DNA of 64,000 bases, from contig DATKDW010000093.1 of the NCBI GenBank assembly GCA_035512495.1, positions 1-64,000 of the forward strand, written 5' to 3'. Source of the stretch: Acidimicrobiales bacterium (GTDB lineage: Bacteria; Actinomycetota; Acidimicrobiia; Acidimicrobiales; CADCSY01). The notes beneath the pieces were generated by a model. The model worked only from the letters and a program-made list of their open reading frames with translations. It was not told where the DNA came from and made no database searches. A program made the translations under genes and the position numbers. This document shows, in pieces, positions 37,768 to 48,485 of the stretch; the first letter of the stretch is position 1; the number at the start of each line of letters is the position of its first letter.

Positions 37768-38517
37768 CTACGGGCCGGGGAACCACCGCTTGAACGCCCC
37801 CGGGTCCTCCGAGCCCTCGACCATCACGTCGGCTTCGGCTGCATCCAGCCGGCCCAACGCCAACAGGACCAGGGCCTCGTCGCTGCCTGAGAACGTGATG
37901 TTGGTGCCGTCGACCTCCGCCGGTTGCCACTGACCGTCGGACCAGCCAAGATCCACGGTGAAGCGGTCACCCCGGATGTGCACGTTCGTCGGCTCCTTGG
38001 GTGACTCGCCGGCCGAGCCCAGGGTCCCCAGCATGCTTGCGAGCACGGTGCTCGCGGCCTGGACGGTGTCGGTGGACAGGCCGTGGGCGGCATCGAGCGC
38101 CCGGTCGAGGTCGAAGCGGTGGATGCCGGCCTCCATCGCCGCCACCTGCAGCACGAACCGCCCTGGCAGCGCGCCGTACGGCATGGGACATGCTGCGTCG
38201 ATGGATTCCTCCTCCACGGCGTCGAGCGCGTCCATGAACGCCGTGTGGGCCGCTTCCAGCTCCCCCACCAGAACCGTCGGGTCGACGCTGTCGGTCTCGG
38301 GGGGCACGAACACGTCCGTGTCGCCCCGGTGCAGGCGCTCCCACGCCGCCGCCTGGAGCGACTGCCCCCAAACGAGGTGACGGGCCAGGTGCCGCACGGT
38401 CCAGCCGGGGAGCTCGGTGGGCGCGTCCCAACGTCTGGGGTCGAGCGCTGACAGCGTGTCGCGGGCTGCGTTGATGTCGCGGTGGATGGTGCGCCGGGCG
38501 GTGTCGAGGTCGAGCAT
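37768..38517 (-). CDS. DinB/maleylpyruvate isomerase-like family protein
   Basis: This 249-residue protein has the four-helix DinB fold of mycothiol-dependent maleylpyruvate isomerases. An N-terminal DTARRTIHRDINAARDTL is followed by LPGWTVRHLARHLVWGQ, with the first conserved His. A later AAMEAGIHRFDLDRAL supplies another. A C-terminal SCP2-like domain (DGTNITFSGSDEALVLLALGRL) follows. The substrate is unknown. The ATG at 38517 has a strong ribosome-binding site (GGAGGAGAA) and overlaps the stop of the large cyclase-domain gene by one base (TGATG). The two are therefore coupled. Confidence 0.82.
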   Translation of the reverse strand: MLDLDTARRTIHRDINAARDTLSALDPRRWDAPTELPGWTVRHLARHLVWGQSLQAAAWERLHRGDTDVFVPPETDSVDPTVLVGELEAAHTAFMDALDAVEEESIDAACPMPYGALPGRFVLQVAAMEAGIHRFDLDRALDAAHGLSTDTVQAASTVLASMLGTLGSAGESPKEPTNVHIRGDRFTVDLGWSDGQWQPAEVDGTNITFSGSDEALVLLALGRLDAAEADVMVEGSEDPGAFKRWFPGP

Positions 38518-41500
38518 CAGTTCTCCTCCTGCGTTGATGGATCGGACTGCGAGGTCCGGGTCGGGTCGTCGCTCCACAGCGCGCGTTGCGCGTGAGCGAT
38601 CCGGTGGGCGAGCCGCACGGAGCTCGTATGTGTCGCGTGGGTGTGGGCGAGCGACAGGTAGCGCCTCGCCTCGTGCGCCTCGCCGAGCCGGTGCAGCGCC
38701 AGTGCGGCTTCGGTGGCGCTGTGCCCGGCGAGCAGCGGGGACTCGGCAGCGTGGTTGGCCTCGTAGGCCTCACGCAGATGGTCAGCGGCGTCCGTCCACC
38801 TGCCCAGAACCGCCGCCAGGACACCCAGGACGTGTGCACCGGCGCCGATGCACACGGCTCCCGAACCGACCACGATGTGCTGGTCCCGCCACGGTCTCGC
38901 CAGGTGGTAGAGGCCCTCGGCGCCAGCGCGGTGGCCGGTCGCCGCGCAGGCATCGGCGAGCACGGCGACCACCATGCCCGCCGATTGGTCGGGCGGTACC
39001 TGCGAGAAGTCCTCAGCCACGTAGAAGTCCAGGAGGTCTCGAGCCTCGGCGGTACGGCCCAGCTCCGCGTCGAGCGCGGCAGCGACTGGGAGGTAGCGGT
39101 AGGGGACCACGGCGTCGCCGCGTCGGCGAGCGGTCTGGATCAGCGGATCCACCTCCCGGCACCGGCCCTGCTCACGTCGCAGTAGGAACAGCTGGCCGGC
39201 GTACACGTGCTCGGTATCGGCATAGCGACGCCGGCGGCCCTCTTCGCGAAACGCTTCGATGTACTCGTCGGCGTCCTCGAGCTCACCGCGATGCAGGTGC
39301 CACATCACCCGCCACATGGCCGGATACCAGAGATATCGCGGTTGGCCCAAGCCCTCCGCGAGCGCTTCAACTCTGTGGATGGTGGCGTGCGCGGCGGCCA
39401 TTTGTCCGAGCGTGAGCTCGTCGAGCAACCGCAATCGACCCGCCTCGAGCGCCATCGCACCATCTCGGGCCTGCGTCGCCGCGTCCTCCATCTCGATGGT
39501 GGCGAGCAGCCGCTCGCCGGTCTCGTCGGGTGCGCCCCGCGTCATTCGCCATGCGTGCAGAGCTCCAGGCAGAACGCCCGGGTCATCCAGCGACCGGGCC
39601 AGTGCGAGCGCCTCATCGGCGAGCCGCTTCGACTCGGCCTCCTCCCCAGCGAAGGCCCGATCGGTCGCCAGCGCGCCGAGGATCTGGGCGCGGGACGTGG
39701 GATCGTCGACCAGATCCAAGGCACGACGTAGCAGCGCACCTGAGGTTCCCGAGCGCGGGCGACGGGTGGCGAAGTAGGCCGCCTCGTGGCCCAGGGCCGC
39801 GACGCCCAGACCGTGCCGGTCGCCCAACTGCACGGCCAGCTCTGCCGCCTGCTCGTACGCGCCCAACGCTCCAGCCAGGAGCCCAGCGGCGTGCCGCTCC
39901 CGCCCGAGGGCCAGCAGCAGCCCGACGCGGTGAGCGGGCGCGACGCCGACTTCGGCGCCGACACGCAGGGCGAGCTCGTAGTGGCGGGCCGCTTGTTCGA
40001 AGGCCAGCCGCGCGGTGGCGTGCTCGGCCGCCGGCTCCGCGTAGCGGAAGGCCAGTTCGGCGTCGCCGCCCTCGGCGGCGTGCCAGGCCAGCGTGCCCCA
40101 GAGGTCGGGAACGTCGGCCCGCAGCTCCGCGAACGCCCGGGCAGCCCGGGCGTGGATGCGCCGACGGTCCCGTCGCAGCATCGTCGAGGCGATGGCCTCG
40201 GCGACAACCGCGTGCGTGAACCAGACCCGTTGCCCGTCGTGGCCGAGCAGCGCCGCTCGGCGTAGCTCGTCCAGCGCCGGCTCGGTCGAGTCTTCGTCGA
40301 CGATGTGGTGCAGAACCTGGAGGTCGAGGCCTTCGCTGACCACGGCGGCGGCATCGAGGACGGCTCGGACCGATGGTGTCAGTCGGTCGGCACGAGCGAG
40401 GACCACCCGCTGCACGGTGTCGGGGAGGTCGAGTTCGCCGATCTTGTTGAACCGCCAGCCGGCAGCGTCGCGCACGACGGCCGACTGGCCCACCAGGTGA
40501 CGGCACAGCTCGCTGAGGAACAAGGGGTTTCCGTCGGCCAGCTCCAGGATCTGCTCCTCCAGGTCCGCGGGGAGCACGGCTCGACCGAAGAACGCGTCGA
40601 GCAGTGCACGGTCCTGTCCTGACAAGAGCGGTTCCAGCCCGAGCACCGTGCCAGCTGCGCGGGCGCGATCGACGAGATCCTGTGAGGCGTGGTCGGTCAC
40701 CGGTCGCCGCGTCACCAGCACCGGTATGACGGCGGCCACGGCCTCGAGCGCGGCCACGGTCCAGGGATCCGCCCAGTGGAGGTCCTCCACCACCACCAGA
40801 ACGGGCTGTCGGATGCTGTGGTCGCGCAACGTGCCCACCAACGCCTGCACCGCCTGCTCGTGGAGCACGTCGGCCGACCCGCCGTACGCGGCACCGCTTC
40901 CTTCCGGGCGCACCCGCCCAGCGACGAGGGCCAGGCCGTTCCGCTGAGCGTGGCCGGTCGTGCTCCGGTCGTCGTCGAGCAGCGCGGCAGCGACGTGGCG
41001 CAGTGGCCAATAGGGAAGGGTGCGCGCGTGTGACGCAGTCGCGGCCGCCAGTACGTCCGCCCCGTGCGCCGCGGCACTCGCGCAGACCTCTGCCAGCACC
41101 GCACTCTTGCCCACCCCTGCGTCTCCTTCGACCACCGCGATGCCGCTTCCGCGGGCGAATGCCGCTTCGATCCAGGACTCCAAGTGGGAGACCTCGCGAT
41201 GGCGGCCGACCAGTGGCGCTTCGCGGGCGGCGAGCACAGATCGGCCGCGCTCGTGCCCGACTACCACCACGTCGACCGGCTCCGCCTTGCCCTTCAGCGT
41301 GAGCTGTCGCTGGTCGGCCACAGCGAAGAGATGGCGGACGCGCTCGTACAGTCCCAAGTGGCAGAGGAGCTCGCCGCTCCCGGCTGCGGCCATGAGGCGT
41401 GCTGCGGTGTTCATCACGTCGCCCAGTGCGGTGAACTCGACGTGGTGGCCAGCGCCGTGCAGAACCAGCGCCGCAGGCCCCACCGTGGCGCCAGCGCGGA

Positions 41501-42347
41501 TGCCCGGCGCCGCATGAAGGGCTTCGAGCCCGGCCCGTACGGCGCGCTCGGCGTCGTCCTCGTGCGCGGGCACCCCGAAGAACGCCACCGTGACGCCGCC
41601 CGTGAGCGTGCGTGCTGTGCCCTCGTACCGGTCGATGATCCGTCGAACCTCCACCGCAGCGGGATCGCCATGCGATCCATCCGCGGGCGTGGCCACGAAC
41701 AGCGCAGCGATGACCTTCCGCTCCTCGTGTCCCTCCGTCGATCGGTCGGCGTCACCGGTCGCTGCGACGGACGGCGCCGAGACGTCGACAGCGAGGCGAG
41801 GTCGCCATGATGGGATCGACGAACCGTCGGGTGCGGAGACGTCGTCTCCCCGCTGCCAATCGAGCTGACCTCTCAGGCGCCGCCGGACCACCCGGCCGGC
41901 GAGCACACCATCGGCCGGGGCCGCGGCCTCCAAGGCAGTGGCCAGATCGAAGAGCTCGGCTGCCGCATCGACGATCCCGGATTCGATCCCCACGCGCACC
42001 GCAATCCGATCGCGTTCGGTCCCACCCTGTTCGATGACCATGTCGCTGGCGGCCACTCCCGCTCGCACCGCCGCCATCGCCGCAGCGTCCCCGCCGACGA
42101 ACCGGGCCATCACGCCGTCGCCAGCCAGCTGCAGCACCTCGCCACCGTGGGACTCGACCGCCAGGACCACTGCGGCGACCGCGGCGCCGACCACGGCGGC
42201 CAGATCCTCGACGTCAAGACGCTCGCCGAGCGACGTCGAACCGACGAGATCCGCCACGAACGCCGTGATGTCGACGGTGCCCGCCCATGCCATGCCCTCG
42301 GATCCCGCGGGTGCGGGGGCGTCGTCTCGCGTCGATGACCCGCCCAT
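38517..42347 (-). CDS. Cyclase-domain / AAA ATPase / TPR signalling protein
   Basis: This 1276-residue protein combines two class III nucleotide-cyclase homology domains, an AAA/STAND ATPase and a long TPR-like helical region. Domain one (residues 25-160) keeps both metal-binding aspartates (D33 in ADLVGST, D77 in AGDGVMARF). Domain two (210-370) opens with RKVIAALFVAT and has GGVTVAFFG; both metal aspartates are replaced (A219 and G251), although the later FTALGDVMNTAARL and LKGKAEPVDV motifs remain. It looks like a pseudo-cyclase. Walker A is GDAGVGKS (408-415) and Walker B VLVVVEDLHWADP. No DNA-binding helix-turn-helix is visible. It is divergent from the Liv-type importer and coupled to the DinB-like gene. 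The ATG at 42347 is clear. Confidence 0.85.
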   Translation of the reverse strand: MGGSSTRDDAPAPAGSEGMAWAGTVDITAFVADLVGSTSLGERLDVEDLAAVVGAAVAAVVLAVESHGGEVLQLAGDGVMARFVGGDAAAMAAVRAGVAASDMVIEQGGTERDRIAVRVGIESGIVDAAAELFDLATALEAAAPADGVLAGRVVRRRLRGQLDWQRGDDVSAPDGSSIPSWRPRLAVDVSAPSVAATGDADRSTEGHEERKVIAALFVATPADGSHGDPAAVEVRRIIDRYEGTARTLTGGVTVAFFGVPAHEDDAERAVRAGLEALHAAPGIRAGATVGPAALVLHGAGHHVEFTALGDVMNTAARLMAAAGSGELLCHLGLYERVRHLFAVADQRQLTLKGKAEPVDVVVVGHERGRSVLAAREAPLVGRHREVSHLESWIEAAFARGSGIAVVEGDAGVGKSAVLAEVCASAAAHGADVLAAATASHARTLPYWPLRHVAAALLDDDRSTTGHAQRNGLALVAGRVRPEGSGAAYGGSADVLHEQAVQALVGTLRDHSIRQPVLVVVEDLHWADPWTVAALEAVAAVIPVLVTRRPVTDHASQDLVDRARAAGTVLGLEPLLSGQDRALLDAFFGRAVLPADLEEQILELADGNPLFLSELCRHLVGQSAVVRDAAGWRFNKIGELDLPDTVQRVVLARADRLTPSVRAVLDAAAVVSEGLDLQVLHHIVDEDSTEPALDELRRAALLGHDGQRVWFTHAVVAEAIASTMLRRDRRRIHARAARAFAELRADVPDLWGTLAWHAAEGGDAELAFRYAEPAAEHATARLAFEQAARHYELALRVGAEVGVAPAHRVGLLLALGRERHAAGLLAGALGAYEQAAELAVQLGDRHGLGVAALGHEAAYFATRRPRSGTSGALLRRALDLVDDPTSRAQILGALATDRAFAGEEAESKRLADEALALARSLDDPGVLPGALHAWRMTRGAPDETGERLLATIEMEDAATQARDGAMALEAGRLRLLDELTLGQMAAAHATIHRVEALAEGLGQPRYLWYPAMWRVMWHLHRGELEDADEYIEAFREEGRRRRYADTEHVYAGQLFLLRREQGRCREVDPLIQTARRRGDAVVPYRYLPVAAALDAELGRTAEARDLLDFYVAEDFSQVPPDQSAGMVVAVLADACAATGHRAGAEGLYHLARPWRDQHIVVGSGAVCIGAGAHVLGVLAAVLGRWTDAADHLREAYEANHAAESPLLAGHSATEAALALHRLGEAHEARRYLSLAHTHATHTSSVRLAHRIAHAQRALWSDDPTRTSQSDPSTQEEN

Positions 42348-42485: not shown

Positions 42486-43946
42486 GTGGGGGTGACTGCG
42501 GTGGGCGGAGCGGACCGGTGGATCGGGCGTGGCCGGACGATCACCGCCGTCGCACTAGCACTAGCGCTGGTCTTTACCGCGTGCTCGGTGAACACGCCCC
42601 GCAACGGTGTGTCGACGGCGGACGGCACCTCCTCGCTCGCCGACCCCGCGGTCAGCGATGCGACGTCACCGGCCGCTGTGGGCCCTTCGCTGGAGGACGA
42701 GTCAGCGGGTCCCGCAACGGCCACCGCGGGGCCGCCGTCGGAGGACGGTGCCGGGACGAGCGGCGCTGCGGACTCGGGGGCGGCGAGCGGGCGGCCCGGC
42801 GACGGCTCCGCCACGACCGGGCCCGCAGCGGGAGGGTCCGCCGGACCGCTACCCGAAGGAGCCGTCGCTCCGGGCGAACCCGTCGTCGTCAGCTACGTAG
42901 CCGGGTTCAGCGGGCCGTACGGCTCCATCATCTCCGAGGCGCTCAACGGGCTTTACGCCTGGCTCGACGAGATCAACGGGCAGGGCGGCATCCTGGGCCG
43001 ACCGGTCGTCATCAAGGAGGTGGACCACCGAGAGAGCGCTGCCGGCGGCGTGTCGGCCTGCAAGGAAGTGCTGTCGAACGGAAGCCACCTCGCGTTCCTC
43101 GCCATCGGGATCGACGCGGTCATCACCGCGACGGACTGCCTCGACCGCAACGGCTTCCCATCGCTCTACTTCGCCAGCGCCGAGCCCTTCTACCGCAGGT
43201 GGCGGCACTCCTACTCCGTGACTGCGAACGCCGAGGACGTGGGGCGAGCGCTGGCCTCGTTCGTCGAGCACCGCTTGGACGGCCGCAGGCACCCCGTCGG
43301 CGTCATCGTCCTCAACGGCCTCCAGACCAAGGCCACGGCAGATGCTTTCGTCGATGACGCCGCGGCCCACGGGCTCGACGTCGTGGGCATCGAATCCGTC
43401 GAGTTCAACCAGACCTCGTTCGTGCCCGAGCTGCAGCGGCTGCGCGAGGCCGGCGCCGAGATCGTGACCATGTTCGTGACCGCCGAGGTGCTCGGGATCC
43501 TGCGGGATGCGCGGGCCATGCGCTACCAGCCCGAGTTCACGGGCATGGGCTACACGTTCGACTTCCTCGCCGCCGCTGCCCGCGATCTCATGTCGGGGGT
43601 CAGCGGGGTGCGCATCTACGCCACCATCGACAGCCCCGCGTTTCCGGAGTTCACCCGTCTCGCCGACAAGCACGGCCGTCGGAAGCGGGCCTTCGACGGA
43701 GACCACTTCTTCACCTATGGCTACGGGCTGGTCATCGGCCGCGTGCTGGAGGCGTCAGCCCCGTACACCCGGGCATCGCTCTTCGCCGGCATCGAGTCGA
43801 TCGAGAACTACGACAACCAGGTGGACGCGCCGATCACCTGGGGTCCAGGCGATTACATCGGGACCTCGGCAGTCTTCCCCGTCGTCTGCTGCCGCCCGGA
43901 CTGGGCGTGGAAGAGCCTCGGTCCGGCAGCCGAGCAGTTCGGTTAG
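42486..43946 (+). CDS. livJ: Liv-type ABC transporter substrate-binding lipoprotein
   Basis: This 486-residue type I periplasmic binding protein starts with a lipoprotein signal (TAVALALALVFTAC). A Ser/Thr/Gly/Pro-rich linker of about 100 residues follows. The binding domain begins near residue 137 (VVVSYVAGFSGPYGSI) and has the family's GQGGILGRPVVIKEVDHR, PVGVIVLNGLQTKATADAF and REAGAEIVTMFVTA. Members bind branched-chain amino acids, amides or other small ligands; which is not visible here. Start is GTG at 42486, and a GTG at 42492 is possible. It is the first gene of a five-gene importer operon. Confidence 0.9.
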   Translation: MGVTAVGGADRWIGRGRTITAVALALALVFTACSVNTPRNGVSTADGTSSLADPAVSDATSPAAVGPSLEDESAGPATATAGPPSEDGAGTSGAADSGAASGRPGDGSATTGPAAGGSAGPLPEGAVAPGEPVVVSYVAGFSGPYGSIISEALNGLYAWLDEINGQGGILGRPVVIKEVDHRESAAGGVSACKEVLSNGSHLAFLAIGIDAVITATDCLDRNGFPSLYFASAEPFYRRWRHSYSVTANAEDVGRALASFVEHRLDGRRHPVGVIVLNGLQTKATADAFVDDAAAHGLDVVGIESVEFNQTSFVPELQRLREAGAEIVTMFVTAEVLGILRDARAMRYQPEFTGMGYTFDFLAAAARDLMSGVSGVRIYATIDSPAFPEFTRLADKHGRRKRAFDGDHFFTYGYGLVIGRVLEASAPYTRASLFAGIESIENYDNQVDAPITWGPGDYIGTSAVFPVVCCRPDWAWKSLGPAAEQFG

Positions 43947-43958
43947 GCAGCAGCGCCC

Positions 43959-44810
43959 ATGGCTACCGCCGTCATCAACGGGGTGTTCGTCGGTGCAATC
44001 TACGCGCTGTTCACCTTCGGGATCGTGCTGGTCCATCGGGGCTCACGGGTGCTGAACCTCGCCCACGGGGAAACGGGCTTGATCGGGGCATTCGTCTTCG
44101 TGTCCCTGTGGGGCGCTGGTCTACCGCTCGTGGTGGCGATGGTGGTCGCCGTCGCTCTTTCCGCCGCCGTCGCTGGCCTCACCTATGCGTTGGTGATCCG
44201 GCACCTCGAACCCGCCGGCCCCAGCCGGATGGTCGCCACCATCGGCGTAGCCGCCCTGCTGCTCACCGTCGCGAGCCGCAGCTACGGCACCAGGCCGCAA
44301 GGTGTCGAACCCCTCGTCACCGGAAACGCGTTCACGGCGGCAGGCATCACCGTCTCGATGACGCAGCTCCTGGTGCTGGGCACCGTGCTCGCGCTGATGG
44401 CCGCGTGGTTCCTCGTCGACCGCTACACCGACCTGGGCCTCCGCCTGCGCGCCATCGCGCTTGAACCTGTGGGCGCCACCGAGCTCGGGCTACCCGTGGA
44501 CCGAATCGCTTTCGGCGTTTGGGCCTTGGCGGGTGCGCTCGCCGCCCTCGGGGGAGTGCTGATCTCGTCCCTCGTCGTGTTCCACGTGTTCTTCATGACA
44601 TCCATCACCATGCGCGCCCTGGTGGCGGCCCTCGTCGGCGGGCTCAGTCGACCCGCTGCCGGCATGCTCGTCGCCATCGGACTGGGTGTGCTCGAAAGCA
44701 CCGTCCAGTACGAGATCAGCGCTCCGGGGGCCACAGAGGCCGCGCTCGCAGTGGTGCTGGTGGCGCTCGTGCTCCTGAGGCCTGGGCGCGTCGCTCTGGC
44801 GGACCTGTGA
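43959..44810 (+). CDS. livH: Liv-type ABC permease LivH
   Basis: This 283-residue permease has about eight membrane helices. The N-terminal motif SRVLNLAHGETGLIGAFVF is diagnostic for LivH, and the ATPase-contacting loop is RLRAIALEPVGATELGLPVDR. It lies 12 bases after livJ. Its TGA overlaps the livM GTG in a GTGA. It is intact and of normal length. It pairs with the LivM fusion to form the channel. Confidence 0.92.
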   Translation: MATAVINGVFVGAIYALFTFGIVLVHRGSRVLNLAHGETGLIGAFVFVSLWGAGLPLVVAMVVAVALSAAVAGLTYALVIRHLEPAGPSRMVATIGVAALLLTVASRSYGTRPQGVEPLVTGNAFTAAGITVSMTQLLVLGTVLALMAAWFLVDRYTDLGLRLRAIALEPVGATELGLPVDRIAFGVWALAGALAALGGVLISSLVVFHVFFMTSITMRALVAALVGGLSRPAAGMLVAIGLGVLESTVQYEISAPGATEAALAVVLVALVLLRPGRVALADL

Positions 44811-47023
44811 GCGGCGGCAAGCGCCTGACCGTGATGCGACTCGGGAAGGTGGCAGCGCTCCTGCTCGCCCTCGGCCTGTTCTGGGCGCCGGCACGAGCGG
44901 ACGAGGACGCCTCGATCATCCGGGCCCAGGCGTGGTCGCTGACCGGTGAGCTACCGCTCCTGCTCGCCGATGACGAGCTGCTCTACGTGGCCCGCTCAGG
45001 CAGCGAGCATGCCCGGACCTTCGTGCGGATCGAGATCGACGGTCTTCTCTCCGATGCGGTCGACTCCGCGGTGCTCCAGCTGGCCGAAGGCGGCGACGAG
45101 CTGTCTCCCGACAACGCAGCGATTTCGGTGTGCGCGTTGACCTCGCCGCTCCAGAGCACCGGCCGGATCGACCCCGCGAGCGCGCCCGAGTCCGACTGCA
45201 GGATCCAGACGTTCGCGGTGCGGTCACCCAACGGCCTCTGGTCCGTTGACCTGCGCCCGTTCCTCGACCAGCCCGAGCTGGCGGCGCACGGCTTGGCCAT
45301 CTTCCCCGACGCCACCGACCCCCGACCAGCGGCCGCCACGTTCCGGGTCTCGTTCGACCCGCGGGTGACCACCGTGGTGACCACCACGGCCTCCACCGTG
45401 CCCCAGCGAGCTCCTTCAGGCGCCGATACCGCTCCGGTCGACTCGCTTCCGACCACGCAGTCGTCGGCCACCGCTCCCCCGATCGCGCCGGCATCCCCGT
45501 CGACCCCCGCGGGTGGTTCAGTGGGAGCCACGTCCGGTTCCTCTCGCGGTGCCGACGACGTTGTCGAGTCGGCCGCACCGCCCTCGGGATCCGATGCCTC
45601 GACCGTCGGCGGCATCACGGCAACCGTGGCCCCCTTGGTGAACACCCCGCCCTGGCAGCTGCTGCCGGCGGGCGCGCTCGTTGCAGGAGCCGTGGCCGCG
45701 CTCGGCGCTTCGCTTGCCGCCCGACGAGCGCGATCCGAACGCCCAGTCAGGGTGGCCGGTGCACGATGGTCAGGCGCGGTCGCGGCGACTGTTGCGTTGC
45801 TGGCCGTCCCTGCTGTCGCGAGCGAGTCGCTCGTGTTCGACCTGGGCCTGGTGCTGATCTTCGCCGTCGGGGTCCTGGGCCTGCACGTCCTCGTCCACTG
45901 GGCAGGCCAGTTCTCGCTCGCTCACGCCGCGTCGATCGGTGTTCCTGCGTTCGTCGTCGCCCGGTTGGCAGACGCCTGGAACACATCATCCCTGCACCTG
46001 GTGCCCGTCGCTGTCGTCGTCGGCGTCATGGTGAGCGCTGTCTTGGCCGCCGTCAGCTCTCGTGCTTCCACCTACACGGTGACGGTGGCAACACTGGCCA
46101 TCGCGCTGGGCGCCGACCGGTACCTCTTCACCAACCCACTGCTCGTCGGGGCGGGGACCGTGACCGTTCCCGCCCCGGAGCTGCTGGTACTGCGGTTCGG
46201 ATCCAGCCGTAGTCTCTGGGTGCCGCTCGTGGTGCTCACCCTGTTGGCGTTTGCGGCGACCGCGGCGCTGGGCTCTTCAGAGCTCGGCCGTCGGATCCGC
46301 TGGTCTCATAGAAACCCCGCCGGCGCGGCGGCCGCCGGCATCCACCCCCGCCTCGCCATCGCATCGGCGTATCTGGTCGCAGGTGCGCTCGCCGGTCTCG
46401 CCGGCGGTCTCACCGTCATCTGGGTCGGTACCGTCGGATCGCAGAGCTTCCCGCTCGCCCTGGCCTTTGACATGTTCATCGTCGCCGTCGTCGCCGGGGC
46501 GGGGTCCGTGCTGGCCGTCGCCGGCGCGGCGTTCCTGTTCGAGGGCATTCCAGCCCTGAACCCACTGACCGGACCGGTAGCCGCCTATGGCGGACCACTG
46601 TTGCTGCTCTTGGTGCTCGTGCACTTCCCAGGAGGGCTCAACGAGGCATGGAGGAATCTCATGGAACGCAGGCCATCACCGTGGCAATCAGTCCCAGCAG
46701 TGCTGGATGGCGCCGGCCGACGCCGCAGGTGGTCGACGCTGCGGCCGCTCACCGCTCTCGGGGCCACGGCCATCGCCTTGGGCTTCGGCGCGATTGCTCT
46801 CGCCTGGTACCACGCCGGCAACACCGACCAGGTCTGGATACAGACCCAGGAGCTGATTTCGGGTGGCATCGGGGGGCTGGGGCTCATCGTCTTCGGTACG
46901 GGCCTGCTCTTGGCGGATCACCTCCGTGCGCTCCGTCACGCCGTCGAGCGCAGCGGTGAAGCCCCTTCACGTCGCGACGACGCCGAGACCGACGTGACCG
47001 CCACGCCCCACCGCTCAGCATGA
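44807..47023 (+). CDS. livM: LivM permease fused to exported N-terminal domain and C-terminal membrane module
   Basis: This 738-residue protein is about twice the usual LivM length. Residues 1-31 form a signal sequence (VAALLLALGLFWAPARA). Residues 33-185 form a beta-sandwich-like domain resembling DNRLRE/CBM-type modules (ELLYVARSGSEHARTFVRIE, DSAVLQLAEGG) with a likely Cys pair. A Thr/Ser/Pro linker reaches to about 280. The LivM core follows from about 285, with VHWAGQFSLAHAASIGVPAF and the coupling loop AAGIHPRLAIASAYLVAGAL. After residue 640 an extra two-helix module (LISGGIGGLGLIVFGTGLLL) ends in a charged tail. The GTG at 44807 is coupled to livH and the stop to livG. The frame is unbroken, so the fusion is real in this assembly. 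Confidence 0.88.
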   Translation: MSGGKRLTVMRLGKVAALLLALGLFWAPARADEDASIIRAQAWSLTGELPLLLADDELLYVARSGSEHARTFVRIEIDGLLSDAVDSAVLQLAEGGDELSPDNAAISVCALTSPLQSTGRIDPASAPESDCRIQTFAVRSPNGLWSVDLRPFLDQPELAAHGLAIFPDATDPRPAAATFRVSFDPRVTTVVTTTASTVPQRAPSGADTAPVDSLPTTQSSATAPPIAPASPSTPAGGSVGATSGSSRGADDVVESAAPPSGSDASTVGGITATVAPLVNTPPWQLLPAGALVAGAVAALGASLAARRARSERPVRVAGARWSGAVAATVALLAVPAVASESLVFDLGLVLIFAVGVLGLHVLVHWAGQFSLAHAASIGVPAFVVARLADAWNTSSLHLVPVAVVVGVMVSAVLAAVSSRASTYTVTVATLAIALGADRYLFTNPLLVGAGTVTVPAPELLVLRFGSSRSLWVPLVVLTLLAFAATAALGSSELGRRIRWSHRNPAGAAAAGIHPRLAIASAYLVAGALAGLAGGLTVIWVGTVGSQSFPLALAFDMFIVAVVAGAGSVLAVAGAAFLFEGIPALNPLTGPVAAYGGPLLLLLVLVHFPGGLNEAWRNLMERRPSPWQSVPAVLDGAGRRRRWSTLRPLTALGATAIALGFGAIALAWYHAGNTDQVWIQTQELISGGIGGLGLIVFGTGLLLADHLRALRHAVERSGEAPSRRDDAETDVTATPHRSA

Positions 47024-47772
47024 GGACGAACTCGGGCGGTCTCGTGGTCGAGAGGGTTGGAGTCTCCTACGGCTCCCTCGTCGTTCTCGACGACGCCTCC
47101 ATCGCCGTGCCGCCGGGGATGGTCGTAGGGCTCGTCGGCCCGAACGGCGCCGGCAAGACGACGCTGGTCGATGTCGCCTCCGGATTCATTCGTCCCCTGC
47201 AGGGCCGGGTTCTGTGGGACGGTCGGCCGATCACCGACCTCGCCCCGCATCGGCGGGCTCGGCTGGGACTCGGACGCACCTTCCAACACCTCGGCCTCGC
47301 CTCAGACCTGTCGTGTCTCGACCACCTCTGCACGGGCGCGGCGATGCCGCAGCCGTACCGGGTGCTCGATCCGCTGACCGCCCCATGGCGCTGGCGACGT
47401 GGCGAGGCCGACCTACGCGCTCGCGGCGAGCAACTGCTGGGCGACCTTGGGGTGGCGGCGTGCGCGCACGTCGCCACCGAGGAGGTGCCGTTCGGCTCCG
47501 CCCGGTTCGTGGAGGTGGCCTCGGTGCTCGCCCGGCAGCCATCCATACTCCTGCTCGACGAGCCGACCACCGGCTTGAGTCGAGCGGAGATCGTTGGGCT
47601 CGTGGAGGTGCTCAAGGAGGTCAGGGCCTCGGGCACGGGCATGCTCGTGGTGAGCCACGATCCAAGCTTCATCGACGCGTTGTGCCATCGCGTCTACACC
47701 CTCGACCACGGCCGGATCGTCGAAGCGGACGATGGCCAATCCCATCACCCGGCAACGGAGACGAACCGGTGA
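47020..47772 (+). CDS. livG: Liv-type ABC ATPase LivG with unusual signature motif
   Basis: This 250-residue ATPase has Walker A GPNGAGKTT (residues 40-48), the Q-loop GLGRTFQH, Walker B LLLDEP (177-182) and the H-loop VVSHDP. The ABC signature, normally LS-x-G-Q, reads VPFGSAR (156-162): Ser and Gln are replaced and only the central Gly stays. The ATG at 47020 overlaps the livM stop in an ATGA. With LivF it forms an ATPase pair, so one degenerate site may be tolerated. Length is normal. Confidence 0.9.
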   Translation: MRTNSGGLVVERVGVSYGSLVVLDDASIAVPPGMVVGLVGPNGAGKTTLVDVASGFIRPLQGRVLWDGRPITDLAPHRRARLGLGRTFQHLGLASDLSCLDHLCTGAAMPQPYRVLDPLTAPWRWRRGEADLRARGEQLLGDLGVAACAHVATEEVPFGSARFVEVASVLARQPSILLLDEPTTGLSRAEIVGLVEVLKEVRASGTGMLVVSHDPSFIDALCHRVYTLDHGRIVEADDGQSHHPATETNR

Positions 47773-48485
47773 ACCACAACGGCCACCTCGTCGTGCACGG
47801 TCTCTGCGTCGGGTACGGACGCCGAGTCGTGTTGCGCGACGTCGAGCTGGAGGTGCAGCCGGGCGAGTTCGTTGCACTCGTCGGGAGCAACGGTGCGGGG
47901 AAGACCGCGCTGCTGCGCACCCTGGCGGGACGACTCACCGCTCGCGGCGGACTCGTCCGCCTCGACGGTGTCGACATCACCAGGTGGCCGACGTGGCGGC
48001 GCGCGCGCTCGGGCATCGTCCACGTCCCGCAGGAACGACACCTCTTCCCCACCCTGAGCGTCGAGGAGAACCTGCGGGTGGCACTCCTCGGCCGGCCCCA
48101 CCGGACGAACTGTGGCAGCGACTCACTCGGCGGCGTCTACGCCGTGTTCCCGCGCCTGGCTGAACGGCGGGCGCAGGACGCTCGGACGCTCTCGGGCGGT
48201 GAGCAACAGATGCTGGCGTTGGCCCGGGCGCTGGTGACCCGGCCTGGGGTCCTCCTCGCTGACGAACTGGCTACCGGGTTGGCACCCGGCGTGCGAGAAA
48301 CGGCGTTCGACGCTCTCCGGGATGCCGGCACCAGCGTTCTGCTCGCAGAGCAGAACGCGTCCACCATCGCCCAGGTCGACCGCACCTACGACGTCGGTGA
48401 CGGCACCGTGGCGGCTCCCGGAGAGAACATCTCAGACATTCCAGCGCTCGTAGCCGTCAAGCGGCATCTGAGATCTCGGTCCTGA
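47769..48485 (+). CDS. livF: Liv-type ABC ATPase LivF
   Basis: This 238-residue ATPase has Walker A GSNGAGKTA (residues 39-47), Q-loop IVHVPQERHLFPTLSV, signature LSGGEQQ (141-147) and Walker B VLLADE. The usual Asp-Glu-Pro is changed to Asp-Glu-Leu (ADELATGLAP), and the switch His is not obvious in VLLAEQNAS, as is usual for LivF. The GTG at 47769 overlaps the livG stop in a GTGA; a longer frame upstream is a shadow of livG. It ends the importer operon. The C-terminal tail is normal. Confidence 0.92.
   Translation: MNHNGHLVVHGLCVGYGRRVVLRDVELEVQPGEFVALVGSNGAGKTALLRTLAGRLTARGGLVRLDGVDITRWPTWRRARSGIVHVPQERHLFPTLSVEENLRVALLGRPHRTNCGSDSLGGVYAVFPRLAERRAQDARTLSGGEQQMLALARALVTRPGVLLADELATGLAPGVRETAFDALRDAGTSVLLAEQNASTIAQVDRTYDVGDGTVAAPGENISDIPALVAVKRHLRSRS

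Follow-up and report, generated by a model that had tools for sequence, protein, structure and literature searches.

The locus analysed here raises the question of why a LivM-type permease should be encoded in a frame of 738 codons, with additional domains on both sides of the permease, and whether such a frame is genuine. The window, meaning the whole 64,000-nucleotide stretch of DNA that was analysed, lies on contig C93 of a draft genome of 97 contigs and 2.8 Mb. Pfam and profile matches delimit a compact LIV-type operon at 42486-48485, in the order LivJ-LivH-LivM-LivG-LivF, composed of the following genes:

42486..43946, plus strand: LivJ-type substrate-binding lipoprotein (Peripla_BP_6; PF13458, E 3.7e-29 at residues 133-456)
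43959..44810, plus strand: LivH-type permease (PF02653, E 4.1e-23)
44807..47023, plus strand: 738-codon fusion of signal peptide, N-domain, stalk, anchor, LivM and two-helix module
47020..47772, plus strand: LivG ATPase (PF00005, E 1.4e-22), with an ATGA overlap with the fusion gene
47769..48485, plus strand: LivF ATPase, start approximate (profile match 47769-48473)

The matches of LivM and its neighbours to LIV-type families are far beyond chance, and PF02653 scores above its curated cut-off in both permeases. The unbroken frame reported in the initial annotation was confirmed, being open throughout 44807-47023 and bounded by overlaps of 4 bp at both ends, GTGA with LivH (44807-44810) and ATGA with LivG (47020-47023), and third-position GC is strong across nearly its whole length. 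The operon resembles E. coli LivJHMGF in gene set and J-H-M-G-F order, in its pair of PF02653 permeases, its Peripla_BP_6 protein and its two ATPases. E. coli LivM (1278 bp, about 425 residues), on the other hand, has neither the N-domain nor the C-terminal module of the window protein, which scores 12 bits against a cut-off of 366 in the E. coli LivM equivalog model NF008450 (NCBIfam). Divergent from the operon, a large AAA_16 regulator whose N-terminal region resembles a nucleotide-cyclase domain is encoded at 38517-42347 on the minus strand.

The fused protein can be divided as follows:

44807..44899, plus strand: signal peptide region, residues 1-31 (hydrophobic segment 7-25; leader at about 10-31)
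44900..45370, plus strand: N-domain, residues 32-188, a DNRLRE/CBM96-like beta sandwich with two conserved Cys (AF2, fold matches, alignments A2/A3)
45371..45655, plus strand: Thr/Ser/Pro/Gly stalk, residues 189-283 (sequence)
45659..45715, plus strand: membrane anchor helix, residues 285-303, followed by basic residues (hydropathy; AF2 helix of moderate confidence)
45842..46555, plus strand: LivM core (PF02653), residues 346-583 (E 8.6e-20; AF2 blocks mostly above 90 pLDDT)
46751..46936, plus strand: two-helix C-module, residues 649-710 (AGNTDQVWIQTQELISGGIGGLGLI; alignment A1 of 31 sequences, family searches)

Translation likely starts at GTG 44807, ATG 44834 being possible, and the signal peptide would be cleaved after ARA. 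The hydrophobic leader precedes the beta sandwich, in agreement with the proposed export of the N-domain. The description of a complete LivM core followed by a further two-helix module also held, with PF02653 at residues 346-583, LivM helices spanning 316-620 and the helix pair at about 648-710, after which the protein ends in a short polar tail. What that description did not include is the extra anchor at about 285-303, which stands before the LivM helices and appears with moderate confidence as an AF2 helix at positions 3-31 of the 280-738 model. The C-module was modelled as two long helices with moderate to low confidence (pLDDT about 50-80), and Foldseek searches with the model of LivM and C-module returned weak matches, including BtuC-type permeases (2nq2, 1l7v; E 0.17-0.9). 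Searches by sequence for relatives of solved structure found none for P0001, for the N-domain alignment A3 or for the C-module alignment A1.

When residues 32-188 were modelled alone, a confident beta sandwich was obtained (AF2, pLDDT 87.8, pTM 0.83, 27-row alignment), whose best fold match is a chondroitin-sulphate carbohydrate-binding module (8wab, Z 13.7, 155 aligned, rmsd 3.1), with the alginate-binding CBM96 structure 7vbo also matched (Z 11.7, 145 aligned, rmsd 3.3). The window N-domain itself has no match in NCBIfam or Pfam, DNRLRE and CBM96 included; DNRLRE_dom (NCBIfam) is nevertheless matched by 10 of 27 members of its family (best E 1.1e-11) and CBM96, weakly, by one of them. Consequently, the term DNRLRE-like used for this region is justified by its relatives and its fold, the window sequence being undetectable alone. 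Beyond the beta-sandwich fold and these family matches, differences from DNRLRE (NF033679) and CBM96 (PF24517) are apparent. The window domain falls below detection, is acidic (net charge -13) and has no Lys, and it is part of an importer, not of a lyase or a surface enzyme. Net charges are negative throughout the 27 family members (-3 to -24), whereas the alginate site of CBM96 relies on Lys and Arg residues (PMC9971899), so that an acidic, Lys-free domain would be unlikely to bind polyanions in that way. Most members share two Cys, which may be disulphide-bonded; conservation is otherwise low except at core positions of the 27-row alignment.

The C-module carries a conserved core, W...Q.PYL.SGG..GL, over the 31 sequences of alignment A1, and the charge bias, read by the positive-inside rule, predicts both of its ends to be cytoplasmic. 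No significant Pfam model was found for this family, nor any in Pfam or NCBIfam for the extra parts of the window protein, and the near-misses in Pfam (P13, PhaG/MnhG, TctB, DUF3040) were judged to be chance results for short hydrophobic hairpins. An H-C-CxxC tail, Ada-like, ends 49 of 86 C-module copies; it takes the form (Y/F)HRPxC...PCRxC in stand-alone proteins (e.g. L043:7552-8145, L051:7412-7897) and is missing from fused C-modules, that of the window protein included. The zinc site of Ada has the motif YCRPxC...PCxRC. The likeness to the Ada N-terminal zinc-binding domain (PF02805) is confined to this tail of the stand-alone proteins, which scores 15.6 bits with PF02805 against a cut-off of 23, and in the tail the first Cys of the Ada motif is replaced by His. 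TctB and DctQ, accessory subunits of secondary importers, offer an analogy only, that of a small helical membrane protein whose gene adjoins those of a permease and a binding protein, as the C-module has two helices versus four, belongs with an ABC rather than a secondary transporter and shows no significant homology, the TctB scores being weak and restricted to two members. Alignment A4, which combined stand-alone C-modules with LivM rows, was replaced by A5 because the LivM tail had slid onto the C-module. One genome of the same class (G240) carries 17 C-module copies.

Searched for separately in 59 related genomes, the N-domain was matched in 7 and the C-module in 23, and most matches are separate proteins rather than fusions. 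The stand-alone N-protein consists of a signal peptide, the N-domain, a low-complexity stalk and a C-terminal anchor, while the stand-alone C-module protein consists of the two helices and a cytoplasmic tail. A second LIV operon of the same genome (L043, contig C42) encodes in order an N-protein, LivJ, LivH, LivM, LivG, LivF and a C-module protein; gene order is the same in the operons L045 and L051, and in L051 the C-module gene is read from the other strand. Linkage to LIV genes was scored with profiles built from sequence matches alone, neighbours being ignored. In the first set, 58 of 64 C-modules have a LIV gene of any kind within 5 kb and 54 of 64 have LivJ, LivH or LivM at that distance; the six unlinked copies are all no further than about 0.7 kb from the end of a contig. 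N-domains are LIV-linked at the same distance in 19 of 21 cases; one of the two exceptions is near a contig end and the other, L047, has no LIV neighbour. In a hold-out made of hits from a phylum-wide draw (Actinomycetota) restricted to other families, every C-module (22/22) and every N-domain (5/5) was found within 5 kb of LivJ, LivH or LivM. Linkage by chance is about 4-6%, as estimated from ten genomes (about 33 Mb) with 118 binding-protein genes, each genome having 5 to 17 LIV-type binding proteins. The N-domain and the C-module are uncharacterised families whose members, throughout Actinomycetota, are normally encoded on their own next to LIV operons. In one of these operons, an M20 peptidase gene (L044:9131-10258, minus strand) has the N-protein gene on one side and two C-module genes on the other, which hints at a peptide-like or N-acyl cargo there.

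A search for the same fusion in other genomes, with a whole-protein comparison that took in 118 relatives, located the full triple fusion in the window only, together with partial forms elsewhere. L153, likewise from another genome of this order, encodes signal peptide, N-domain, stalk, anchor and LivM in one frame before its contig ends inside LivM, and L001 (contig C140, from a genome of the same order) encodes LivM with the C-module, with no N-domain in its corresponding LIV operon. A further frame, L098, joins the N-domain and the C-module without LivM and sits between LIV genes. In the LivM tree, L001, L153 and the window protein group in one clade with support 100/100, the window sequence being 42% identical to that of L153 over shared columns. 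The partial LivM fusions of L153 and L001 show that the fusion is genuine and predates this genome, and the three fusion combinations that they and L098 represent support a functional link among the N-domain, the C-module and LivM; gene linkage and fusion speak for such a link rather than for physical contact. It had been anticipated that, if the parts occurred as separate genes in relatives, a local fusion or assembly error would be the likelier cause. Separate genes do occur in many genomes; a local accident does not follow, as these genes adjoin LIV operons phylum-wide and the L153 and L001 genomes carry partial versions of the LivM fusion.

Other joined frames were observed among these operons. 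A complete MFS transporter domain is joined to one or two LIV-type ABC ATPases in L048:1764-4841 (minus strand; contig C6 of the same genome) and in L044:14219-16423 (minus strand), with matches to MFS_1 (E 2.7e-35) and two ABC_tran domains, and the operons of L048 and L044 also hold an N-domain protein. Single frames of LivH-LivM-LivG(-LivF), about 1265-1416 residues long, occur at L046:8130-11924 (minus strand) and also in L044, L049 and L102, placing almost the whole importer in one chain.

The initial annotation had taken the extra domain as a sign that the importer carries a cargo different from free amino acids. The LivJ of the window has a lipobox Cys followed by a Ser/Gly/Thr/Pro tether of about 100 residues (42486-42880) and then the binding domain, a comparable tether being found in most aligned LivJ relatives. 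In E. coli LivJ, the polar amino-acid contacts are S79, T102, Y202 and E226 (PMC13103812). None of the four is kept in the window LivJ, unlike E. coli LivJ, in a MAFFT alignment of low identity against E. coli LivJ and LivK. Judged from these residues, the cargo is unlikely to be a branched-chain amino acid bound as in E. coli LivJ. The same contacts are also missing in the LivJ of unfused operons, so their loss is not evidence concerning the fusion. The proposal draws indirect support from the missing contacts but not from the fusion on which it had been based.

Several explanations of the fused gene were weighed. Joining of separate genes by an assembly or frame error is hardly credible: the genome is indeed a draft of 97 contigs, but the same in-frame N-LivM junction is present in the independent genome of L153 and a LivM-C junction in L001, and coding bias is continuous over most of a frame that overlaps both neighbours by 4 bp. 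An assembly artefact was rejected on the strength of the L153 and L001 fusions. It is rather improbable that accessory genes of the same operon were fused by chance and tolerated, the fusion having no mechanistic meaning. LivM fusions are indeed seen in three genomes only and the genes are apart in most relatives; against this, the extra parts have persisted in different families, between which LivM identity is 38-42%, and three fusion combinations occur. Moreover, the separate N gene is usually upstream of LivJ and not beside LivM, so that simple loss of a stop fails to explain the N-LivM junction.

The main rival attributes a function of its own to the N-domain, as a module that binds glycans and so ties the importer to the cell wall, the capsule or a polysaccharide outside the cell, where the breakdown of polymers would release its cargo. 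The nearest folds, 8wab and 7vbo, are carbohydrate-binding modules and the long stalk suits a reach into the wall. This role nonetheless appears unlikely, given the acidic character of all family members as opposed to the Lys/Arg-dependent CBM96 site and a fold that is also common to non-glycan proteins; nor did any carbohydrate-active gene stand out in the operons that were read. Substrate-binding domains are fused to the permease in some other ABC importers. The N-domain, likewise fused straight to a permease and placed outside the membrane by its signal peptide, could by that precedent be a second receptor that hands a compound to the permease, bypassing or supplementing LivJ. This is improbable for a single beta sandwich that is not a two-lobed binding protein and is poorly conserved beyond its Cys and core positions, in an operon that still holds a normal LivJ gene.

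The explanation that we favour, and hold to be somewhat better than evenly probable, is that the gene encodes a LIV-type importer's LivM (ABC family) to which two accessory subunits, usually encoded separately, have been joined, a Rosetta-stone fusion. It draws on sequence-based evidence, namely the frame, the predicted fold of the N-domain, family membership, LIV linkage and the partial fusions elsewhere. Both accessories would associate with the permease formed by LivH and LivM. Carried outside the membrane by its long stalk, the N-domain may act as a docking or capture platform keeping the tethered LivJ, or the source of its ligand, near the permease, while the two-helix hairpin would pack alongside the permease, its two ends lying in the cytoplasm, where the zinc-knuckle-like tail of stand-alone C-modules may add a further contact. 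Fusion would fix the stoichiometry of the accessories at one per LivM.

Taken together, there is about an even chance that many Actinomycetota LIV importers have two extra conserved subunits, an extracytoplasmic docking domain of CBM fold and a two-helix membrane subunit bearing a zinc knuckle on its cytoplasmic side, revealed here by their fusion to LivM. LIV importers and the fold of the N-domain were already known; the new elements are the C-module family, for which we found no family model or paper, and the assignment of both partners to the LIV system, nothing relevant to a LIV accessory subunit or LivM fusion having been found in the partial literature covered. These results suggest that the large LIV transporter family has undescribed helper subunits, and the fusion provides a single-chain construct for testing the partnership. 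LIV importers are common, and if the two families are regular LIV partners, many hypothetical proteins would gain a testable role. For envelopes of this kind, models of the encounter between a tethered binding protein and its permease would then need an extra component.
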